Translations under genes and position numbers: made by a program | DNA from: Mycobacteriales bacterium | GTDB lineage: Bacteria; Actinomycetota; Actinomycetes; Mycobacteriales; SCTD01 | Length of the DNA stretch: 56,434 nucleotides | NCBI GenBank assembly: GCA_040902655.1 | Contig: JBBDWV010000051.1 | Coordinates: forward strand, 18,876-75,309 | Reading direction: 5' to 3' | Notes under the pieces: generated by a model | What the model was told of the DNA's origin: nothing | The model's database searches: none | Seen by the model: the letters and a program-made list of their open reading frames with translations, nothing else | Shown: piece after piece, positions 53-14,577 of the stretch | Numbering within the stretch: position 1 is the first letter of the stretch | Layout of the letters: every line of letters begins with the position of its first letter

Positions 53-2560
53 TCACTCTCTCTGGGGCGGCCGGCCGTCGGCAGCTGGCGACAGAGTCGA
101 GCCAGGGACGGCTTCCGGCTCGGGCTCGCTGTCGGCTTGCCGTCCGACGCTGCTGATCGCATCGAACAGCAGAGACGGCCGCCCGCCGAGGGAGTTGACG
201 AAGATGAGCGTGACGGAGGCGGCCATGGCGACCATCGCCCAGACCGGGTAGACCAGCCCCGTCGTGGCCGCGGGGATGCCGATGCCGTTGAACAGGAACG
301 CGACGCCGACGTTCTGGCGGGTGCGGCGGTAGCTGGAGCGGCTGATGTCGCGGGCGGTCAGGACGGCGTGCAGGTCGTCACGGACGACGATGATGTCGGC
401 GCTGTCCACGGCGATGTCGGTGCCGCCGCCCATCGCGATGCCGACGTCGGCCTGCATGAGGGCCGGGGCGTCGTTGATGCCGTCGCCGACCATCGCGACC
501 CGCTGGCCGCCGGTTTGGAACTCGCGCACGATGTCGGCTTTGGCCTCGGGCAGCACGCCGGCGCGGACGTCGTCGATGCCGAGCTCGCCGGCCACGTGCG
601 CGGCGGCGCGCGCGTTGTCGCCGGTCACCAGGATCGGGGTGATCCCGGCGTCGCGCAGCCGGGCCACAGCGTCGGCGGCGTCGGTGCGCAGCGCGTCGCC
701 GAGCGCGATCAGCCCGAGCGGACGGCCGTCGGCGGCGACCACGACGACCGTGCGGCCGGTGCTCTCCAGCTGGTCCATCCGGGCGCGCATCCGCTCGAGG
801 TCGACGCCCCCGTCGGACAGGAACCCCGGACGGCCGACCAGCACCGCCTGACCGGCGACGCGGGCGCGGACGCCGAATCCGGTGACCGACTCGAACTGCT
901 CAGCGGGCGGGACCGTCAGGCCGCGCTCCTTCGCCGCCCGGACGACCGCACGCGCCAGCGGGTGCTCGGACGAGGACTCGGCGGCGGCGGCCAGCGTGAT
1001 GAGCTCACCGTCGCCCACCAGGGACACGATCTCCCGGACGGCGGGGCGGCCCTCGGTCAGCGTCCCGGTCTTGTCGAGCAGGACCGTGCGGACCTGGCCG
1101 AACGTCTGGAACGCCTCACCGGTCCGCATGATGATCCCGAGGTCGGCCGCTTCGCCGGCGGCACGGACGATCGCCAGCGGTGCCGCGATCCCGACCGCGC
1201 ACGGGTAGCCCATGACCAGCACCCCCAGCCCGGCGAACACTGCCCGGCGGACGTCGGCCTCTCCCGCGATCAGCCACGACCCGAGCAGCCAGCCCGTCAG
1301 CGCGAGGGCGGAGACGACCAGAACGGTGGGCGTGTAGACGCGCAGGACCCGGTCGACCAGATGGAGGATCCCGGGCTTGAGCGCGCGGGCGTCCTCGACG
1401 TGCCGCACGACCTGAGCCAGGAAGCTGTCCGTCCCGACCCGGGTTGCTCGGACCAGCAGCGTGCCGGAGCCGTTGATCGACCCCCCGACGACGTCCTCCC
1501 CGGCGCTGCGCTCGACCGGCACCGGCTCACCGGTGACCAGCGACACGTCGAGCGTGGAGTAGCCGTCGGCGACCTGCCCGTCGACCGGGACGCGCTCGCC
1601 CGGGCGCACCCGCACCACATCGCCCACCGCGACCTGGTCGATCGGCGTGTCGGTCTCGACCCCATCGGCGAAGACCCGGGCGGTGTCGGGCTGCAGGTCC
1701 AAAAGCTTCTTCACAGCCTGGCTCGACCGGGTCTTGACCAGCAACGACAGCCACTCGCTGAAGATGTGGTAATTCGCGACGAGCACCGTCACGGCGAAGA
1801 ACGGCGCCGTCGGGTAGTCCTCGAAGGCGCCGGTCAGCCCCACCAGGCCGCCGGCGATCCCGGCGAACGCGCCGACCTCCAGCAGGACGTGCTGGTTCAG
1901 GATCCGCCTCCGGCCGGCCTGGTAGGCCATCCGCAGGATGTGTGGGGCGACCCCGAACACCACGACGAGCGCGAGAGCGCCGACGACCAGACTGACAGTC
2001 GTGTCACCGAGCAGCCCGCTCTCCCGTGCGCTATACCCGAGCACTGCCGGAGTCACGATGCCGACGGCGCCGGCGGCGGCCCGCCCACGGCCGGCGGGAC
2101 GCAGCAGGGCGTAGGCGACCGGGACCATCAGGGCGACGACCGACGCTGGGACGAGCACCGACCAGATCCCGGAGACCTCGAGGATCAGGGCGATCGCGGT
2201 GAGGCTCGCGCCGATCGCGGCGAGCAGCCGCTTGCCCTCCCGGACGAGGTCGGCTTCTTCCTCCTCGTACGGCCGGAGCTTGCGCGGGTCGTACAGGTCG
2301 TAGCCGATGTCGCGTAGCGTCCCGAGGATCTGCTCCGGCTCGATCAGCGCGGGGTCGTAGTCGACCAGTGCCTGCTCGTGGGTCAGACTCACCGCGACCT
2401 TGTGGACCCCCTCCTGTCGGCCGAGGGCCTTCTCGATGGTGCCGGTGCACAGCGAGCAGTGCAGCCCGGCGATGCGTGCCCTGATCCGCACATGGCCTTC
2501 CAGGCTGCTGGGCTCCTCGGCCCACAGCGCATCGGCGTCCGTCCTGGTCGGCGTGCTCAT
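53..2560 (-). CDS. Heavy-metal translocating P1B-type ATPase
   Basis: Integral membrane ATPase of 835 residues predicted to pump a transition metal out of the cytoplasm. An N-terminal HMA domain carries a CSLC metal site (Cys35, Cys38). It is followed by hydrophobic helices, the actuator TGE motif (near 343), the phosphorylation site DKTGT (Asp496), an SEHP-type motif and GDGINDAP. The membrane metal motif reads Tyr452-Pro453-Cys454 where most copper and zinc pumps have CPC, so the first ligand Cys is replaced and the metal cannot be read from the usual motif. The gene starts 36 nt after the copZ-like stop, so the two form an operon behind a MerR-type promoter. Family membership is certain; copper as substrate is only suggested by the CopZ-like partner. 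Confidence 0.93.
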   Translation of the reverse strand: MSTPTRTDADALWAEEPSSLEGHVRIRARIAGLHCSLCTGTIEKALGRQEGVHKVAVSLTHEQALVDYDPALIEPEQILGTLRDIGYDLYDPRKLRPYEEEEADLVREGKRLLAAIGASLTAIALILEVSGIWSVLVPASVVALMVPVAYALLRPAGRGRAAAGAVGIVTPAVLGYSARESGLLGDTTVSLVVGALALVVVFGVAPHILRMAYQAGRRRILNQHVLLEVGAFAGIAGGLVGLTGAFEDYPTAPFFAVTVLVANYHIFSEWLSLLVKTRSSQAVKKLLDLQPDTARVFADGVETDTPIDQVAVGDVVRVRPGERVPVDGQVADGYSTLDVSLVTGEPVPVERSAGEDVVGGSINGSGTLLVRATRVGTDSFLAQVVRHVEDARALKPGILHLVDRVLRVYTPTVLVVSALALTGWLLGSWLIAGEADVRRAVFAGLGVLVMGYPCAVGIAAPLAIVRAAGEAADLGIIMRTGEAFQTFGQVRTVLLDKTGTLTEGRPAVREIVSLVGDGELITLAAAAESSSEHPLARAVVRAAKERGLTVPPAEQFESVTGFGVRARVAGQAVLVGRPGFLSDGGVDLERMRARMDQLESTGRTVVVVAADGRPLGLIALGDALRTDAADAVARLRDAGITPILVTGDNARAAAHVAGELGIDDVRAGVLPEAKADIVREFQTGGQRVAMVGDGINDAPALMQADVGIAMGGGTDIAVDSADIIVVRDDLHAVLTARDISRSSYRRTRQNVGVAFLFNGIGIPAATTGLVYPVWAMVAMAASVTLIFVNSLGGRPSLLFDAISSVGRQADSEPEPEAVPGSTLSPAADGRPPQRE

Positions 2561-2596
2561 CGGGTGCCTGCCTTCGTCGGAGAGTGCGGCGTGGGA

Positions 2597-2806
2597 CTAC
2601 CTGACGACGGGGTAGCCGGCGGTCGCGAGCCGCTCGGCGATCGCCCCCTCGCCGGTCTGGCTCTCGTCGTAGACGACCTCGACGCAGTTGGTTGCGGCGT
2701 CGGGCTCGACGACCCGGACGCCGTCCATCCGGGCCAGCGACTTGCGGATCGCGTCTTCACACGCACCGCAGTGGATGTCCTGCACCTGAAAACTCTGCTG
2801 TGCCAT
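2597..2806 (-). CDS. HMA-domain metallochaperone, CopZ-like
   Basis: A 69-residue cytosolic single-domain HMA protein. The metal-binding motif HCGAC sits near the N-terminus, in the usual loop after the first beta strand. Proteins of this family deliver Cu(I), or sometimes another soft metal, to the pump encoded directly downstream. The start is placed at the ATG at 2806 because a strong GAGGA ribosome site precedes it. A longer reading from 2851 would run back into the promoter, whose -10 element is at 2836-2841. It is co-transcribed with the P1B ATPase. Confidence 0.9.
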   Translation of the reverse strand: MAQQSFQVQDIHCGACEDAIRKSLARMDGVRVVEPDAATNCVEVVYDESQTGEGAIAERLATAGYPVVR

Positions 2807-2835
2807 CGGGTCCTCCTCGAGCTCGGAGGACACGC

Positions 2836-2866
2836 ACGCTAGGCATTCCACCTACTGGAAGGTCAA
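2836..2866 (-). promoter_or_regulatory. MerR-type promoter/operator of the copZ-ATPase operon
   Basis: Read on the minus strand, a -35 TTGACC (2861-2866) and a -10 TAGCGT (2836-2841) are separated by exactly 19 bp. The spacer contains a TTCCA...GGAA dyad. An over-long 19-bp spacer with a centred dyad is the hallmark of promoters activated by MerR-family regulators through DNA untwisting. Transcription would begin near 2829, about 23 nt before the copZ-like start codon. The regulator is very likely the MerR protein encoded at 3175. Confidence 0.8.
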
Positions 2867-2936
2867 GGCAGCCTCGTGGGGCGTTCCGGTGACGAGGCAG
2901 CGGAGCACCGACGCGGCGGCTCAGCCGCCCGGGGTC

Positions 2937-3074
2937 AGCGTGTATGACGCCCCAGTTCGACACGATCGAGACGTCCTGTGCGTAGTTCCGTTCGAGATCG
3001 TCCTTGAGAGCGCCGTTCAGGCTCGTGTCGAGGTGGTCGTCCAGCACCTCCTGGGCGCTGCGCCGCTCGCTCAT
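2937..3074 (-). pseudogene. Truncated SnoaL/NTF2-like gene remnant
   Basis: A good ribosome site (GAGGAGGA) precedes an ATG at 3074. The first ~45 residues (SAQEVLDDHLDTS..., ...YAQDVSIVSNWGV) look like the start of an NTF2-like (SnoaL) domain. The similarity stops abruptly after WGVIH. The remaining open frame to 2757 is arginine/proline-rich, runs across the copZ promoter and resembles no domain. I see no continuation in either other minus frame, so this looks like a deletion remnant rather than a simple frameshift. It shares the intergenic MerR operator with merR. Confidence 0.55.
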
Positions 3075-3112
3075 CTGCTCCTCCTCGGCACGGGCCGCAC
3101 CGACGGGCCGGT

Positions 3113-3143
3113 TGACATTCCAGTAGGTAGAAGGACAAGGTCG
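3113..3143. promoter_or_regulatory. Second MerR-type operator, upstream of merR
   Basis: The plus-strand sequence TTGACATTCCAGTAGGT (3113-3129) matches the copZ operator at almost every position, and the dyad continues to TTGTCC on the other strand. No convincing -10 element stands at the 19-bp position, so this may act mainly as an autoregulatory site. It lies between merR and the divergent SnoaL-like remnant. Confidence 0.6.
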
Positions 3144-3174
3144 GCTCCGACCCCTGTACCAGCGTGAGGGCACC

Positions 3175-3585
3175 ATGCGCATCGGCGAGCTTGCTGACCA
3201 ACTCGGCATCAACACCAAGACGATCCGGTACTACGAGCAGATCGGGCTCATCCCCCTCGCGCCACGCACCTCCGGCGGGTACCGCGACTACACCGAGACC
3301 GACGCAGCCCGGCTGACGTTCATCAAGACCGCCCAGCGGCTCGGCCTGTCCCTGGAAGAGGTCGCCGAGATCCTCCGGCTACGCGACGAGGGTGAGCCGC
3401 CGTGCGCCTACGTCCGCGACGTCATCAGCAAGCAGCTGCGCGGCATCGAGCGACGCATCGCCGAGCTGCGCGCTCTGCGCGGCGAGCTGCGGGAGCTGCG
3501 CGCCGCCGCCGACAGCATCCCCGAGGTCGACGGCGCGACCTGCCGGATCATCGAGCATGTCAACGCAGTGGCGGCCCGGAGCTGA
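3175..3585 (+). CDS. MerR-family heavy-metal-responsive regulator
   Basis: A 136-residue DNA-binding regulator. The N-terminal winged helix-turn-helix has the family signature (MRIGELADQLGINTKTIRYYE). A long dimerisation helix and a short C-terminal metal loop follow. Cys77 (PPCAYV) aligns with the Cys that divalent-metal sensors (ZntR, MerR) have where CueR has Ser. The only other Cys is Cys123 in GATCRIIEH, so the two-Cys Cu(I) loop of CueR is not evident. It is divergent from the chaperone/ATPase operon, whose promoter has the correct 19-bp spacer, and probably also controls the site at 3898-3928. Metal specificity cannot be assigned from sequence alone. Confidence 0.92.
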   Translation: MRIGELADQLGINTKTIRYYEQIGLIPLAPRTSGGYRDYTETDAARLTFIKTAQRLGLSLEEVAEILRLRDEGEPPCAYVRDVISKQLRGIERRIAELRALRGELRELRAAADSIPEVDGATCRIIEHVNAVAARS

Positions 3586-3603
3586 CGGCGAGCGGCGCCG
3601 CGG

Positions 3604-3819
3604 CTACGCCGCCGGTCGCGTCTCCTCGAGCTTCAGGGAGATGCCCCACAACTGGTAGATCGGTGGGCACAGGCTCAACGCGAGAGCCCGCCGCTGCCTG
3701 GTCGCGTCTCCCGCGCGCTCGGCCTTCACCCACATGAGCGTCACTGCCGCGATGTGCGCGGCAGCTGTCGCGTACATGTGGCCGCTCGTGACGCCCTTCG
3801 CATGCATCCACTTGACCAT
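3604..3819 (-). CDS. Small hypothetical membrane protein (71 aa)
   Basis: An unrecognised 71-residue protein with two moderately hydrophobic stretches (around residues 13-31 and 44-63) that could form membrane helices, joined by a basic loop. An AGGAG ribosome site lies about 8 nt before the ATG. Its stop is 18 nt from the convergent merR stop. No function can be assigned; its position inside the MerR-regulated block hints at a stress role. Confidence 0.5.
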   Translation of the reverse strand: MVKWMHAKGVTSGHMYATAAAHIAAVTLMWVKAERAGDATRQRRALALSLCPPIYQLWGISLKLEETRPAA

Positions 3820-3897
3820 GACAATGCTCCTGTCCCTCGGTCAACTCGTCTGCCTGTCGAGGGACGGCGTGCCCCGTGGGCGCGTGCAGACACCTGG

Positions 3898-3928
3898 TTG
3901 ACCTTCCACCTGCGGGAAGGTGTAGTGG
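3898..3928 (+). promoter_or_regulatory. Third MerR-type promoter, directed toward doxX
   Basis: A -35 TTGACC (3898-3903) and a -10-like TAGTGG (3923-3928) flank a 19-bp spacer with the near-perfect dyad ACCTTCC...GGAAGGT. The element shares TTGACnTTCCA with the other two sites. Its direction fits the doxX/alkene-reductase genes, putting them in the same predicted regulon. Confidence 0.65.
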
Positions 3929-3994
3929 CCATGTGCGCCGGAGCTGTGCAGCGATCCCGCTCCGCAAGCTCATCGGGAACAGAGCGGCCCGTAT

Positions 3995-4010
3995 GGTTGC
4001 TAATGCAACC
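3995..4010. promoter_or_regulatory. GGTTGC-TAAT-GCAACC palindrome before doxX
   Basis: Perfect 6-bp arms around a 4-nt centre, overlapping a possible -10 TATGGT (3992-3997). TTGC/GCAA palindromes of this kind are typical of MarR-family operators and often sit ahead of oxidoreductase genes. No MarR gene is present in the window, so the regulator would be encoded elsewhere. Confidence 0.4.
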
Positions 4011-4036
4011 AGCTCTCGCAACTCCTGGAGGTTCTG

Positions 4037-4450
4037 ATGGACACCCTTCTCGTCATCGGCAGGGTCCTGTTCGCCCTGCTGTTCCTGGGATCGGCCGTGG
4101 GCCACCTGACCAAGACCGAGGCCATGACGCAGTACGCGCAGTACCGCAAGCTCCCCGCCGCCAAAGCAGGTGTGATCGTCTCGGGTGTCGTGCTCGTGCT
4201 CGGCGCGCTGTCCGTCGTGCTCGGCGTGGTCGGCGACCTCGGCGCGCTCGCGCTCGCGGCGTTCCTGGTGGTCGCCGCCTTCGTCTTCCACGCCTTCTGG
4301 AAGGAGAGCGACCCTCAGGCCACGGCGACCGAGCAGGCGCAGTTCATGAAGAACATCGCGCTCGTCGGGGGCGCGATCGTGCTGTTCGCGCTGTTCGCTG
4401 GGGACGCCGCCGGTCCCGCCATCACCGACGGCGCTTTCGACCTGTCCTGA
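4037..4450 (+). CDS. DoxX family membrane protein
   Basis: A 137-residue, four-helix membrane protein of the DoxX type. It begins with the typical first helix (IGRVLFALLFLGSAVGHL), followed by helices near residues 47-62, 67-87 and 109-124. DoxX proteins are linked to thiol/oxidative stress membrane complexes in actinobacteria, but their biochemical role is unsettled. A GGAGG site precedes the ATG. The alkene reductase gene begins 81 nt downstream on the same strand, so they may share the promoter region at 3898-4010. Confidence 0.85.
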   Translation: MDTLLVIGRVLFALLFLGSAVGHLTKTEAMTQYAQYRKLPAAKAGVIVSGVVLVLGALSVVLGVVGDLGALALAAFLVVAAFVFHAFWKESDPQATATEQAQFMKNIALVGGAIVLFALFAGDAAGPAITDGAFDLS

Positions 4451-4531
4451 ACACACACGGTGTCGGCCGGCGTGCAGTGTGAGGCACACCGGTCCCCTCC
4501 GTGAGACCCCAATCCCTGAAGGAGATTCGCC

Positions 4532-5605
4532 ATGACCTCGCCCCTCTTCTCCCCCTACCGCCTCGGTGACCTGGTGCTGGCCAACCGGCTGGTGATGGCG
4601 CCGATGACGCGCAACCGCGCCGGCGCCGACGGCGTGCCGACCGCCTCGATGATCACCTACTACGCACAGCGCGCCACCGCCGGGCTGATCGTCACCGAGG
4701 GCACCCAGCCCAGCGCCGTCGGCCAGGGCTACCCGCTCACGCCCGGCATCCACACCGCCGAGCAGGCCGCCGGCTGGCGGCAGGTGACCGACGCCGTCCA
4801 CGGGCAGGGCGGCCACATCTACCTGCAGATCATGCACGCCGGACGCATCTCCCACCCGTCGCTGCAGCCCGGAGGTGAGCGTCCGGTCGCGCCGTCCGCG
4901 GTCCGCCCGGCCGGCCAGGTCTTCACCCCCTCCGGCCTGCAGGACTTCATGGACCCCCGCCCGCTGGAGACCGACGAGATCGCCGGCATCGTGCAGCAGT
5001 ACGCCGACGCCGCGCGCCTGGCCGTCGAGCAGGGCGGCTTCGACGGCGTGGAGGTCCACGGCGCGAACGGCTACCTGCCGCACCAGTTCCTGGCCGAGGG
5101 CACGAACTCCCGCACCGACCGGTACGGCGGCAGCGCCGAGAACCGCGCCCGGTTCCTGATCGAGGTCACGACTGCGGTGGCGGCCGCCGTCGGCGGCGAG
5201 CGCGTGGGAGTCCGGCTGTCGCCGGCCAACTCCTTCAACGACATCGTCGAGCACGAGACCGAGGCTGTGTACGCCGCGGTCGTCGCCGGGCTCGCGCCGC
5301 TGGGGCTCACCTACCTGCACGTCGTCGAGGGTCCTGCCGCCGTCACCGAGCAGATCCGCCAGGCGTGGTCCGGGACGCTCATCGTCAACGCCGCCTTCAG
5401 CCTGCCGACCACGCCGGAGAACCTGCAGGGGCTGCTCGGCGGGCCTGCTGATCTGGTCGCTGTCGGCCGGGCGTTCCTCGCCAACCCCGACCTGGTCCAG
5501 CGCCTGCAGCTCGACGCGCCGCTCAACCCCGCGGACGAGACGAGCTTCTATGGCGGCACCGACGCCGGGTACATCGACTACCCCGCCCTCGACCAGGCCG
5601 CCTGA
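4532..5605 (+). CDS. Old yellow enzyme family alkene reductase
   Basis: A 357-residue FMN-dependent NAD(P)H:flavin oxidoreductase that reduces activated C=C bonds of electrophilic enones, nitro compounds or related xenobiotics. It shows the TIM-barrel start (LFSPYRLGDLVLANRLVMAPMTR), the substrate-binding His176 and Asn179 with Tyr181 in HGANGY, and a C-terminal phosphate-binding segment (AVGRAFLANPDL). Length is normal for the NemA/YqjM branch. The ATG is preceded by AAGGAG. It sits after doxX behind a MerR site and a MarR-like palindrome, consistent with an electrophile response. Confidence 0.93.
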   Translation: MTSPLFSPYRLGDLVLANRLVMAPMTRNRAGADGVPTASMITYYAQRATAGLIVTEGTQPSAVGQGYPLTPGIHTAEQAAGWRQVTDAVHGQGGHIYLQIMHAGRISHPSLQPGGERPVAPSAVRPAGQVFTPSGLQDFMDPRPLETDEIAGIVQQYADAARLAVEQGGFDGVEVHGANGYLPHQFLAEGTNSRTDRYGGSAENRARFLIEVTTAVAAAVGGERVGVRLSPANSFNDIVEHETEAVYAAVVAGLAPLGLTYLHVVEGPAAVTEQIRQAWSGTLIVNAAFSLPTTPENLQGLLGGPADLVAVGRAFLANPDLVQRLQLDAPLNPADETSFYGGTDAGYIDYPALDQAA

Positions 5606-5616
5606 CGGCGGTTCCG

Positions 5617-5627
5617 CCCCCCCCCCC
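5617..5627. repeat. C11 homopolymer
   Basis: Eleven consecutive C residues lie in the gap between the alkene reductase and the dehalogenase genes. The run is outside the chosen coding regions but is prone to sequencing error or slippage. Confidence 0.85.
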
Positions 5628-5788
5628 CGGCGCCCACGCCGGGCGGGCGGACGTTGTTCTCCACGTCCTGGACGTCGGACGGCGAGTCGCACTCCCGCAT
5701 CGCGGCGGAGACGCTGCACCTCAGCGCGAGTCGGTACCGCACCGCTAACGTCGCCGCGTCCCTGCCTCCGTTGCCGAGGAGCCCCTTG

Positions 5789-6706
5789 ATGAAGGCCCTG
5801 CGCACCCCCGAGGCCCGGTTCGCCGACCTGCCTGACTTCCCGTACACGCCCCACTACGTCCACGTCGACGACGGGGACGGCGGCCGGCTGCGCGTCGCGT
5901 ACGTCGACGAGGGGCCACGCGACGCTCCGCCGGTACTGCTGCTGCACGGCGAGCCGTCGTGGTCGTTTCTGTACCGGAAGATGATCCCGATCCTGCTCGA
6001 GGCGGGACTACGCGTCGTCGCGCCGGACCTGGTCGGGTTCGGCCGGTCCGACAAGCCCGTCGAGCGCAGCGACTACACCTATGCCCGGCACGTCGAGTGG
6101 ATGCGGCAGGCGCTGCTCGACGAGCTCGTGCTGAACGGAGTGACGTTCGTCGGGCAGGACTGGGGCGGGCTGGTCGGACTGCGCCTGGTCGCGGAGAACC
6201 CCGACCGTTTCGCGCGTGTGGTGGTCGCCAACACCGGGCTGCCCACGGGCGACCAGCAGATGAGCGAGGCGTTCCTGGCCTGGCAGCGCTACTCGCAGGA
6301 GACGCCGGACTTCCGCGTCGGCCGGATCGTGTCCGGTGGGTGCGCCACACCGCTCGCACCGGAGGTGGTCGCGGCCTACGATGCCCCCTTCCCGGACGAC
6401 AGCTACAAGGCCGGCGCGCGGGTCTTCCCGACGCTGGTGCCGACCCGGTCGGACGACCCGGCGGCAGACGCCAACCGCGCAGCGTGGGAGGTGCTGTCGA
6501 GCTGGGACCTGCCGTTCCTCACCGCGTTCTCGGACTCCGATGTCATCACGCGCGGGGGCGACAAGGTGTTTCGCAAGCTCGTCCCGGGAGCGGCAGATCG
6601 CGGGCACGTGACGCTCGAGGGCGGCGGCCACTTCCTGCAGGAGGACGTGGGCCCGCAGCTCGCGCGGGTGGTGGCCGAATTCGTCGCGGCCACCCCGCAC
6701 GGCTGA
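5789..6706 (+). CDS. Haloalkane dehalogenase (HLD-I type alpha/beta hydrolase)
   Basis: A 305-residue cytosolic alpha/beta hydrolase predicted to cleave carbon-halogen bonds of haloalkanes by water. Visible are the oxyanion motif HGEPSW (53-58), the nucleophile Asp124 in GQDWGG with Trp125 as halide-stabilising residue, a candidate acid in SDSDV (249-251) and the base His281 in GGGHFLQED. Positions match DhlA-type enzymes closely. The ATG at 5789 is chosen for the GAGGAG site before it; a longer frame from 5654 has no domain support. Natural substrate is unknown; some family members act on other leaving groups. Confidence 0.88.
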   Translation: MKALRTPEARFADLPDFPYTPHYVHVDDGDGGRLRVAYVDEGPRDAPPVLLLHGEPSWSFLYRKMIPILLEAGLRVVAPDLVGFGRSDKPVERSDYTYARHVEWMRQALLDELVLNGVTFVGQDWGGLVGLRLVAENPDRFARVVVANTGLPTGDQQMSEAFLAWQRYSQETPDFRVGRIVSGGCATPLAPEVVAAYDAPFPDDSYKAGARVFPTLVPTRSDDPAADANRAAWEVLSSWDLPFLTAFSDSDVITRGGDKVFRKLVPGAADRGHVTLEGGGHFLQEDVGPQLARVVAEFVAATPHG

Positions 6707-11486: not shown

Positions 11487-12886
11487 CCGCGACGACGCTG
11501 GCGCCGGCGCCGGCTGCGGCCGGCCTCGACGCGCTCGTCGCCGTCGCCCTCGGCGCCCTGGAGGACGGCCGGCGGCTGCGCGGCGGGCCGGTGCCGCGCG
11601 GCACACCGGCCGACGTCGCCGCCTCGGTCGACCTGGCCCTGGACGGCGAGGCACTGCCGCGGGACGGCGTCGGGGAGGCCCGGGCGCTGCAGACACTGGT
11701 CACGGCGGTCGCCGCAGGCGCCGCCGATCCGGCCGACCCCCGGTGCGCAGCCCACCTGCACTGCCCACCGCTCGCCGTCGCGGTCGCCGCCGACCTGGTG
11801 GCCAGCGCCCTGAACCAGTCGCTGGACAGCTGGGACCAGGCGCCGGCCGCCACCGTGCTCGAGCAACGGGTCGTGGCCGCACTCGCCGATCTGGCGGGCA
11901 TGCCCGGCGGGGCAGGAGTGCTCACCACGGGCGGCACCGGCTCCACCTACACGGCGCTGCTCCTGGCCCGCGACGCCGCGCCGACGCCGGTCCGGCTCTA
12001 CGCCAGTGCGCTGGCGCACTTCTCCGTCGACCGCGCGGCGCACCTGCTCGGCCTGCCCCCGGTGGTCGCCGTCCCGGTCGATGCCGACCTGCGGATGGAC
12101 ATGATGGCGCTCGCCGCACTGCTGCGGGACGCCCCGGCAGACGAGCGCCCCGTCGTCGTCGCCACCGCCGGCACCACCGACACCGGCAGCATCGACCCGC
12201 TGGAGGAGACCGGGCGCCTCGTGCATGCCGTCGGCGGCTGGCTGCACGTGGACGCGGCCTACGGCGGCGGCGTGCTGTTCTCCGACCGGCACGCGCCGCT
12301 GCTCGCCGGGCTGGAGCGGGCTGACAGCGTGTCACTGGACCTGCACAAACTGGGTTGGCAGCCCGTCGCCGCCGGGATCCTGCTGACCCGCGAACCCGGG
12401 GCATTCGCGCCGCTGGACCGGCGTGCCGTCTACCTCAACCCGGCCGACGACGAGCAGGTCGGCTACACCAGCCTGCTCGGCCGATCGCTGCGCACCACCC
12501 GGCGGGCCGACGTCCTGAAGATCGCGGTGACGCTACGGGCGCTGGGTCGACGTGGCCTCGGGCAGCGCGTCGACACCTGCTGCGACCTCGCCCGCGTCGC
12601 CGCTGCACGGGTGCTGGCCGAGCCGGCGCTGACGCTGGCCCGGCCGCCGGTGCTCACCACCGTCGTCTTCCGCTACCTGCCCGCCGACCCGGCGCGCAGC
12701 GACGAGGTGAACGCCGGCCTGCGCCGCCGGCTGCTGCGCGAGGGCACCGCCGTCGTCGGGCGCACCGAGCTCGACGGGGCCGTCCACCTCAAGCTCACGC
12801 TGCTCAACCCGGACGCCACCGTCGCCGACGTCGAGGGGCTGCTCACCCTCGTCGTGGCCGCCGGTCACGCCGAGGAGTCGGCGTGA
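11483..12886 (+). CDS. ddc: L-2,4-diaminobutyrate decarboxylase
   Basis: A 467-residue group II PLP decarboxylase (glutamate/aromatic decarboxylase fold). The N-terminal HLHCPP and TTGGTGSTYTALL segments, Asp257 in HVDAAYGGG and PLP Lys289 in SLDLHKLGWQP are seen. With the preceding aminotransferase it forms the Dat-Ddc pair known from rhizobactin 1021 and related siderophores, producing 1,3-diaminopropane. It overlaps the upstream stop by ATGA and the downstream gene by GTGA. Confidence 0.9.
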   Translation: MTATTLAPAPAAAGLDALVAVALGALEDGRRLRGGPVPRGTPADVAASVDLALDGEALPRDGVGEARALQTLVTAVAAGAADPADPRCAAHLHCPPLAVAVAADLVASALNQSLDSWDQAPAATVLEQRVVAALADLAGMPGGAGVLTTGGTGSTYTALLLARDAAPTPVRLYASALAHFSVDRAAHLLGLPPVVAVPVDADLRMDMMALAALLRDAPADERPVVVATAGTTDTGSIDPLEETGRLVHAVGGWLHVDAAYGGGVLFSDRHAPLLAGLERADSVSLDLHKLGWQPVAAGILLTREPGAFAPLDRRAVYLNPADDEQVGYTSLLGRSLRTTRRADVLKIAVTLRALGRRGLGQRVDTCCDLARVAAARVLAEPALTLARPPVLTTVVFRYLPADPARSDEVNAGLRRRLLREGTAVVGRTELDGAVHLKLTLLNPDATVADVEGLLTLVVAAGHAEESA

Positions 12887-14577
12887 CGGGCCTGCTCGCC
12901 ACCCCGGTCCCGCAGCGGGCGGGCGCGGAGACCCTGCGGGTGCTGCTCCGCTGCTGGCTGCGCGAGACGGGCGTCGCCGTCGGCGGACCGGGTCTGCTGC
13001 AGCTGCCGCTGCCGGCCACCGGCCGGGCACTGGTCCTCGACGTGCTGCGCCGCTCGCCCACAGGTCAGCACGACCTCGGCCAGGTCACCCGGCCCGACGG
13101 GGGCGGGCTCGACCTGCCCGACGTGGCCCGGCTGCTGCTGGAGGAGGCCGCCGCCCGCGCAGGGCTACCGGCCGTACACGCCGAGGCCGCGGTCGCCCGC
13201 GTGCTCGACTCCGCCCGGCGCACCGCCCGCTACGCCGCCGCGCGCGCCGCGGCGCCCGACCCGCCGGCTGGTCTACCGCGCTGGCTGGCCGCCGAGCAGG
13301 ACCTGCTCGCCGGGCACCCGTTCCACCCGATGGCCAAGAGCCGCGAGGAGCTCCCCGACGCCGAGGACGACCTGCTCGCTCCCGAGCTGCGCGGCCACTT
13401 CCCCCTGCACTGGTACGCCGCCCGGGAGGGCGTCGTCGCGTCCGGCAGCGCCGGGCTGGACGTGGGGGCGCTGCTGCGTGAGCTCGCCGGCGACGTGCGG
13501 GTGCCGGCCGGCTTCGTGCCGGTGCCGGCCCACCCGTGGCAGGCCGCACGGCTGAGCTCGCGGCCGGCTGCGGCTGCGCTGCTCGACGCGGGCGACCTGC
13601 TCGACCTCGGCCCCGGCGGTGCGCCGTGGTGGCCGACCTCCTCGGTGCGCACCGTCGGCCGACCCGGAGCTGCGGTGATGCTCAAACTCAGCCTGGGTCT
13701 GCGGGTCACCAACAGCAGGCGCGACAACCTGCGCAGCGAGCTCACCCTCGGCACCCGCACCGCCCGGCTCGTCGACGCCGGCGTCGGGCGGGCGCTGGCG
13801 GCCACGCACCCGGGCTTCACGCTGGTCCGCGACCCCGCGTGGGTCGGCGTCGACGGCCACGGCCCGGTCGGGCTCGACACCGTCGTCCGAGACGTGCCCT
13901 TCGACGCCAGGGACGACATCGCCTGCGCCGGAGCGCTCGTGGACGCGCGCCCGGATCGGGGCCGACCGGTCGTCGTGGACCTGGTCGAGCGACTCGCCAC
14001 CCGCCGCGAGCTGAGCCGGCCCGCCGCGACGTTGTCCTGGTACCGCGGCTTCCTCGCCGCCGTCGCCACTCCACTGCTCTGGCTGCACGGCGAGCACGGC
14101 CTCGGGCTCGAGGCCCACCTGCAGAACCTGCTCGTCGGCCTCGACGCCGACGGCCGCCCGGACCGCGGCTGGTACCGCGACAACCAGGGCTGGTATCTCG
14201 CCGCCTCGCACGAGGCGCGCGCGCAGGCGCTGCTGCCCGGGGTCGGCGACGGGGTGTCGCTGGTCTTCGACGACGCCCTGGTGACCGACCGGGTCGTCTA
14301 CTACCTCGGCGTCAACACGCTGCTCGGCGTCGCGGGTGCACTGTCCGCCGCAGGGCTGGCCGAGGAGCATGACCTGCTGCGTGTGCTCGCCGATACCCTG
14401 CGCGCGCACCTGCGCACCCCGAGGCCGTCACCGGCGGCCGCCGTCCTGCTGGACGCCGACCACCTGCGGGTCAAGGCCAACCTGCTCACCGGCGTCGACG
14501 GCCGCGACGAGCTGGACGGCCCGGTGACCACCCAGTCGGTCTACGTCGCCATGCCCAATCCGCTGCGGGAGCTGTGA
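12883..14577 (+). CDS. IucA/IucC-family siderophore synthetase (first copy)
   Basis: A 564-residue NIS synthetase that adenylates a carboxylate, usually citrate, and couples it to an amine or hydroxylamine. Landmarks are HPFHPMAKSREEL near residues 145-160, LSLGLRVTNSRRDN and GLEAHLQNLLVGLD with a following RDNQG segment, as in canonical IucA/IucC/RhbC proteins. No fused GNAT acyltransferase domain is present. The GTG start overlaps the ddc stop (GTGA). A second, more divergent synthetase lies at 17085, so two condensations on one scaffold are likely. Confidence 0.9.
   Translation: MTGLLATPVPQRAGAETLRVLLRCWLRETGVAVGGPGLLQLPLPATGRALVLDVLRRSPTGQHDLGQVTRPDGGGLDLPDVARLLLEEAAARAGLPAVHAEAAVARVLDSARRTARYAAARAAAPDPPAGLPRWLAAEQDLLAGHPFHPMAKSREELPDAEDDLLAPELRGHFPLHWYAAREGVVASGSAGLDVGALLRELAGDVRVPAGFVPVPAHPWQAARLSSRPAAAALLDAGDLLDLGPGGAPWWPTSSVRTVGRPGAAVMLKLSLGLRVTNSRRDNLRSELTLGTRTARLVDAGVGRALAATHPGFTLVRDPAWVGVDGHGPVGLDTVVRDVPFDARDDIACAGALVDARPDRGRPVVVDLVERLATRRELSRPAATLSWYRGFLAAVATPLLWLHGEHGLGLEAHLQNLLVGLDADGRPDRGWYRDNQGWYLAASHEARAQALLPGVGDGVSLVFDDALVTDRVVYYLGVNTLLGVAGALSAAGLAEEHDLLRVLADTLRAHLRTPRPSPAAAVLLDADHLRVKANLLTGVDGRDELDGPVTTQSVYVAMPNPLREL

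Follow-up and report, generated by a model that had tools for sequence, protein, structure and literature searches.

As set out in the accessible parts of the articles cited here, MerR-family regulators follow a rule of promoters with 19-20 bp spacers, in which the regulator sits in the over-long spacer and distorts it upon ligand binding (PMC9909328). CueR binds Cu(I) via Cys112 and Cys120 and contains Ser77 (PMC9909328), and CadR and MerR add Cys77/82 (PMC9909328, PMC5027573). One half-site type is tied, through a Lys, to CueR and to the actinobacterial HMRTR regulators, whose motifs are 22 bp long with a centre 8 bp from the -35 element (PMC5045206). In Cupriavidus metallidurans, GigT, which is loosely related to DoxX, belongs to a copper- and gold-induced operon (PMC10304878).

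We analyzed a 56,434-nucleotide stretch of a Mycobacteriales genome (referred to here as the window), in which a MerR-family regulator gene, merR, lies between a divergent copZ-copA pair and two genes encoding a DoxX-family protein and an Old yellow enzyme (OYE). We consider it fairly probable that this two-cysteine regulator, through three dyads (S1, S2, and S3), controls copZ-copA, merR, and doxX-OYE in response to a soft-metal inducer. The HMRTR regulators come from the same phylum and have a CueR-like half-site and the same promoter layout as the window; however, their motifs are of a 22-bp/8-bp class in the accessible text whereas the three window sites are of a 21-bp/7-bp class (TTCC-7-GGAA), and 35 of 43 sites at loci fetched through the regulator have the longer form. 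The Escherichia coli CueR operator of copA, ACCTTCCn7GGAAGGT, equals S3 exactly, and that system shares the 19-bp spacer and a P1B ATPase target. CueR, in the part of its description that we draw on, combines Ser77 with Cys112 and Cys120, whereas the window regulator has Cys77 and lacks the first loop cysteine. The Cupriavidus GigPABT system, as far as the accessible text describes it, likewise has a membrane protein resembling DoxX among its metal-induced genes, although its operon differs from that of the window; because copper and gold control a DoxX-like gene there, some precedent exists for linking metal to DoxX. What is new in the window locus is its third target, doxX-OYE, which we saw at none of the further loci that we inspected, together with the combination of a two-cysteine regulator with a pump carrying a YPC motif.

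Three operator sites around merR

A scan of the window placed the 11-mer TTGACNTTCCA at 2866-2856 on the minus strand and at 3112-3122 and 3898-3908 on the plus strand. S1 (2836..2866, read 2866-2836 on the minus strand) is a MerR-type operator-promoter for copZ-copA with the arrangement TTGACC-19-TAGCGT, and S3 (3898..3928, plus strand) is a MerR-type operator-promoter that faces doxX with the arrangement TTGACC-19-TAGTGG. S2 (3112..3142, plus strand) is a MerR-type operator with a -35-like TTGACA whose end lies 32 bp before merR. When we re-read the 31-mers, we confirmed what the first-pass annotation had described, namely that all three sites contain TTGACnTTCCA and that the first and third have 19-bp spacers (before TAGCGT and TAGTGG, respectively); its second site also stands, but the position that it gave, 3113-3143, has to be moved one base to the left. 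All three sites fall inside 1.1 kb around merR, with S3 less than 800 bp from S2 and 1.1 kb from S1. The dyad lies inside a -35/-10 spacer of 19-20 bp, the hallmark of MerR-family promoters, in both S1 and S3. S2 lacks a -10 element, with no hexamer beginning with TA found 18-21 bp from TTGACA. The most perfect of the three is S3, with a perfect 7+7 dyad (ACCTTCCn7GGAAGGT).

S1 is a strong predicted site that the nearest relative has in common. In this relative, which belongs to the same genus (L019, or L171 for a longer stretch), merR is divergent from copZ-copA, the promoter is TTGACC-19-TAGCGT in the same layout as S1, and the merR product is a 73% identical orthologue of the window regulator; the relative's site reads TTCCC. 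A mechanism following the MerR rule is thus well supported for S1 by its anatomy and conservation. We propose that S2 is probably an autoregulatory site for merR.

We found that the sites are unique within their own genome, which comprises 3.56 Mb in 62 contigs. Allowing one mismatch, the 11-mer matched four times in the window where 0.48 matches were expected. Genome-wide it occurs exactly six times (reversed control, 1), three of them at this locus, and the right half of the dyad is absent from the other three. The dyad TTGACCTTCCAN5TGGAAGG (18 bases), searched with up to three mismatches, was found at these three places only (six matches, i.e., three places on two strands; reversed control, 0). 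We also built a weight matrix from 12 sites of other genomes, which were picked by a TTGAC.TTCC core so that the matrix is partly circular for that core. On the 81 kb contig it scored S1, S3, and S2 at 44.9, 26.8, and 22.5 bits, respectively, with the next other place at 9.3 bits, so nothing else there ranks as high as these sites, whichever way they are read. In 60 Mb of a third-order Markov null, 0, 1, and 2 positions reached the scores of S1, S3, and S2, respectively. Since the reverse reading of S2 scores above its forward reading (24.3 bits), the matrix gives S2 no direction; the dyad of S3 is symmetric and its reverse reading scores 20.9 bits. The -10 elements differ, with matrix scores of -0.9 bits for S3 versus +7.8 bits for S1. 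The genome-wide motif search that the first-pass annotation had put forward as a check thus returned no further full site, and, together with the matrix, it supports the idea raised there of one MerR protein with three matching operators in a compact regulon.

We found that this operator type also accompanies metal genes in other genomes. The pattern TTGACCTTCCAN6-7GGAA, searched in 394 genomes of the class, occurs 32 times in 23 of them, including S1 and S3 themselves, while its reversed control occurs once. At 25 of the 27 newly fetched loci of the class, a gene for a MerR-family protein, an ATPase, or a chaperone, or else merA or merB, lies no more than 1.5 kb away; four of the 27 (L207-L209 and L211) are second readings of one palindrome, leaving 21 of 23 places, and three of the MerR-family neighbors (L186, L198, and L205) are only distant kin. 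The same neighbor test returned none of 41 control loci, which consisted of 29 doxX loci, four other loci, and, from the window's own genome, three lone 11-mers and five lone palindromes. Across the phylum the 19-bp form is noisier: among 396 genomes, 14 contained it, with 15 matches in total versus four reversed controls, and 5 of 13 fetched loci had a MerR-family or metal gene. At loci found through the regulator, the site stands before copZ or copA (e.g., L019, L026, L055, L057, L060, and L064), before merA (L021, L074, and L077), or before merB (L062, L063, L068, and L071), and in L064 also before a Cys-rich frame; merA, merB, and this frame were recognized by sequence motif or by eye. Among the 23 other genomes of the family, the exact dyad pattern was absent and the regulator is patchy, with the 73% orthologue as its one occurrence. 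Our data indicate that actinobacterial metal regulators of the MerR family genuinely use this type of site as an operator.

A variant was seen at L192-L194 and L207-L211, from same-order genomes (G586, G621, and G703), where the operator TTGACCTTCCA is present on both strands with merR and an HMA/ATPase-like frame nearby. This arrangement is possibly a symmetric divergent promoter.

The regulator, the pump, and their relatives

The regulator (136 aa; 3175..3585, plus strand) belongs to the MerR family by its N-terminal MerR helix-turn-helix and its MerR-DNA-bind domain (Pfam MerR_1 and MerR-DNA-bind, 2.2e-20 and 6.2e-20), and its best paralogue within the genome shares 41% identity with it. 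The protein has no cysteines besides Cys77 and Cys123. The terminal cysteine of the tail is kept, and the first loop cysteine of CadR and Bacillus MerR aligns to an alanine. The protein does not qualify as the Cu(I) sensor CueR, as it has a cysteine at 77, has none at the position of CadR Cys112, and scores 101.3 bits against the CueR model (cut-off, 147.4). The Hg(II) sensor MerR uses three cysteines (82, 117, and 126 of Tn501); here the middle one is absent and the model score is 104.5 bits, below the cut-off of 150.85. Public records name relatives of the regulator 'heavy metal-responsive transcriptional regulator', and from this naming we infer HMRTR membership for the window protein. Its Lys15 is presumably the Lys that is tied to the half-site in the published table.

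We next compared cysteine sets across 88 distinct filtered regulators at other loci, labeling each locus in the order YPC, merA/merB, CPC. Cys77 with one tail cysteine, the set of the window regulator, is present in 10 proteins at YPC-ATPase loci and in 17 at loci without recognized marker genes. Cys77 with two tail cysteines was found in 20 proteins at merA/merB loci, 5 at YPC loci, 3 at CPC/CPH loci, and 11 at unassigned loci; the five at YPC loci comprise four CxC-type proteins and a second MerR located next to merA. Of the remaining 22, 18 lack a cysteine at 77 and 4 have a different tail. In these counts L055, which has a YPC pump, merA, and two MerR genes, is a YPC locus, and L019 is unassigned because the locus ends before the motif, which the longer stretch L171 shows to be YPC.

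Actinobacterial Hg-type MerR proteins (at the merA/merB loci L021, L062, L074, and others) have nearly the same operator as the window and conserve Cys77, but they differ in a third cysteine, part of an extra DPxxC that precedes the final cysteine, and almost all of them belong to a separate clade. In a tree of 63 rows, this clade is supported (99/99) and holds 30 rows, comprising 25 of the 26 CX3-6C proteins, four with one tail cysteine, and one with none; L098 is labeled as one-cysteine by the spacing rule though two tail cysteines are listed for it. The window regulator lies outside the clade and groups with L019 (100/98). The one-cysteine state requires eight changes on the tree and so does not form a single clade. 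In the closest relatives the tail cysteine is followed by a histidine (CxxIEH) that may be a further ligand. A mercury regulon was considered for this copy and rejected, given that Hg-type relatives have the third cysteine and merA/merB neighbors; a scan of eight proteins from 53 to 6706 showed neither merA nor merB.

The pump gene (53..2560, minus strand) encodes a P1B-type heavy-metal ATPase of 835 aa with DKTGT, an HMA domain (Pfam HMA) with the motif CSLC, and YPC at residues 452-454. The subfamily model TIGR01525 scores 541 bits (cut-off, 346), and the copper (TIGR01511, 433 bits) and cadmium (TIGR01512, 378 bits) models are also above their cut-offs; since both of these pass, the models do not fix the metal. 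The YPC aligns to the CPC of the copper-exporting ATPase 3j09, so the TM6 motif of P1B-1 Cu(I) ATPases is not present. Between the pump gene and S1 lies a gene for a CopZ-like HMA metallochaperone (69 aa; 2597..2806, minus strand; Pfam HMA, 3.9e-14). At other loci, 22 ATPase frames allowed the TM6 motif to be read, giving 16 YPC, 4 CPC, 1 CPH, and 1 SPC; no motif was seen in a 23rd row, which is a broken piece in L171. Eleven of the 16 YPC frames have the HMA motif GLHCSLC, GMSCSFC, or GMQCSFC, and the other five, some of them incomplete, have no recognized motif. We found no description of a YPC motif in P1B ATPases among the titles and abstract openings of the literature listings.

Copper, the inducer that the name copZ suggests, is unproven, since the cysteines of the regulator are not those of CueR and YPC replaces CPC in the pump. 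The pairing of two-cysteine MerR proteins with YPC pumps suggests a metal-sensing and transport site unlike the described ligand sets of CueR, CadR, ZntR, and MerR. A bolder reading, which we regard as unlikely, is that MerR proteins with only Cys77 and one tail cysteine make up an actinobacterial sensor type of their own, paired with P1B ATPases that carry YPC in the transport site; in this lineage the pair would have recruited a DoxX-OYE redox module, and a single soft-metal or electrophile signal would trigger export as well as reductive repair.

In L171, a second ATPase piece (12146-13248) directly follows copA, is apparently broken across frames, and has 70.6% DNA identity to window positions 163-1266.

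doxX-OYE as a predicted third target

The DoxX-family membrane protein (137 aa; 4037..4450, plus strand; Pfam DoxX, 8.7e-9) and the Old yellow enzyme/alkene reductase (357 aa; 4532..5605, plus strand; Pfam Oxidored_FMN, 1.8e-79) both lack cysteines, and OYE scores 329 bits against PRK10605, below the cut-off of 403. S3 lies 108 bp upstream of doxX, and its orientation agrees with the first-pass annotation, in which S3 pointed at doxX-OYE. In the mechanism that we propose, the regulator would bind the three dyads, two of which lie inside long-spacer promoters, and would keep these promoters repressed when no inducer is present. A soft-metal inducer would then cause it to kink the 19-bp spacer, as the MerR review describes, turning copZ-copA (chaperone and P1B pump) strongly on from S1; S2 would probably serve autoregulation of merR, and S3 would make doxX, with OYE transcribed from the same promoter downstream, a metal-inducible redox output. 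Output from S3 would probably be weaker because of its -10 element, and it would probably also be gated by a second repressor at a palindrome at 3995-4010. If true, this links soft-metal efflux to an ene-reductase. With three sites in one genome, the doxX-OYE prediction is readily testable.

We found no doxX or OYE near the operator at any of the 68 operator-bearing loci among 177 loci of other genomes, most of which were retrieved by way of MerR and extend 1.5-6 kb in each direction. Likewise, none of 29 other doxX loci has OYE, or a TTGAC-TTCC dyad within 200 bp upstream; nine further doxX matches lie outside this set, and one locus (L152) has TTCC-GGAA without a -35 element. The closest MerR-copZ-copA locus, from the same genus, has an MFS-like gene after merR in place of doxX. 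A Blastococcus locus has a 77% identical OYE 4.8 kb from an Hg-type merR, with 86 bp of sequence covered upstream of OYE; its site reads TTGACG and it is thus not counted in the 68. Plasmid searches found relatives of OYE and MerR, no doxX match at 1e-10, and no record in which one place covers 80% of 2500-5700. An OYE search of the class at E 1e-150 returned 1 of 296 genomes, the window's own, a threshold too strict to be useful. A conserved metal operon of doxX-OYE is therefore unsupported in the 68 operator-bearing loci, the 29 doxX loci, and, for doxX, plasmids. In the titles and abstract openings of the literature listings, which are weak evidence of absence given that most subscription papers fall outside such a search, none described a MerR or metal operator with doxX-OYE. 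Metal control of doxX-OYE is on balance probable, but it would be lineage-specific.

Dyad uniqueness and the matrix scores against the Markov null lead us to reject a chance origin of the sites. For S3 singly, one null position in 60 Mb did score as high, but this corresponds to approximately 0.12 such positions expected genome-wide on both strands, and S3 lies in a promoter region, oriented to the gene, at the short distances from S2 and S1 given above; a chance match is very improbable indeed. A competing explanation, which we think unlikely yet with a real prospect of being correct, is that S3 is left over from an earlier metal-gene promoter and that doxX-OYE arrived later with its own proximal promoter and a MarR/HxlR-type repressor, in which case the regulator may still bind S3 without effect. 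The gene debris between S1 and S2, the relative's locus without doxX, and the weak -10 of S3 all fit such a history. So does the perfect palindrome GGTTGCTAATGCAACC (3995..4010), a candidate MarR/HxlR-type operator in the proximal doxX promoter with TATGGT at its edge, together with the loci of doxX relatives: L142 and L153 have divergent MarR genes and a GTTGC/GCAAC palindrome (exact in L142, imperfect in L153), and L174 has a divergent HxlR gene. However, S3 has the best dyad, an intact -35, and 19-bp spacing, whereas decay would be expected of a site that had become neutral. Moreover, GGTTGCTAATGCAACC, although this is its only exact copy in the genome, is not enriched when one mismatch is allowed (12 matches versus 12 reversed controls), and by script no such palindrome lies within 200 bp upstream at 27 of the 29 other doxX loci (the exceptions are L142 and L169, where it is far upstream).

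Old yellow enzymes and DoxX proteins are typical of electrophile and thiol stress. This association, and a cysteine set unlike those of CueR, CadR, and MerR, would fit a regulator that senses electrophiles or oxidants through a Cys77'-Cys123 pair, instead of or besides metal, with pump and reductase as a joint response. Relatives with the same cysteine set, however, have metal ATPases or chaperones as their recognized neighbors and no such reductase was found beside them, and we regard this sensor as quite improbable. Within our preferred reading, that of metal control through three dyads, the data leave room for a joint metal/electrophile response, which is speculative.

Between S1 and S2, a truncated reading frame (2900..3073, minus strand) is gene debris that by eye is NTF2/SnoaL-like; it has no Pfam match, is 42.9% identical over 35 aa to a frame near a merR in L041, and suggests a rearrangement in the copZ-merR gap. 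Between merR and doxX, a frame of 71 aa that belongs to no known family (3604-3819, minus strand) has no Pfam or NCBIfam match and no relatives in the 177 loci of other genomes. S3 was also considered as the promoter of this divergent frame and rejected, as no TTGAC/-10 pair was seen on that strand, although the reverse reading of its symmetric dyad does score, as given above. Downstream of OYE is a gene for a haloalkane-dehalogenase-like hydrolase (5789-6706, plus strand). Just after OYE, 12 C bases stand in a row (5617-5628), possibly a phase-variable or assembly-prone tract.
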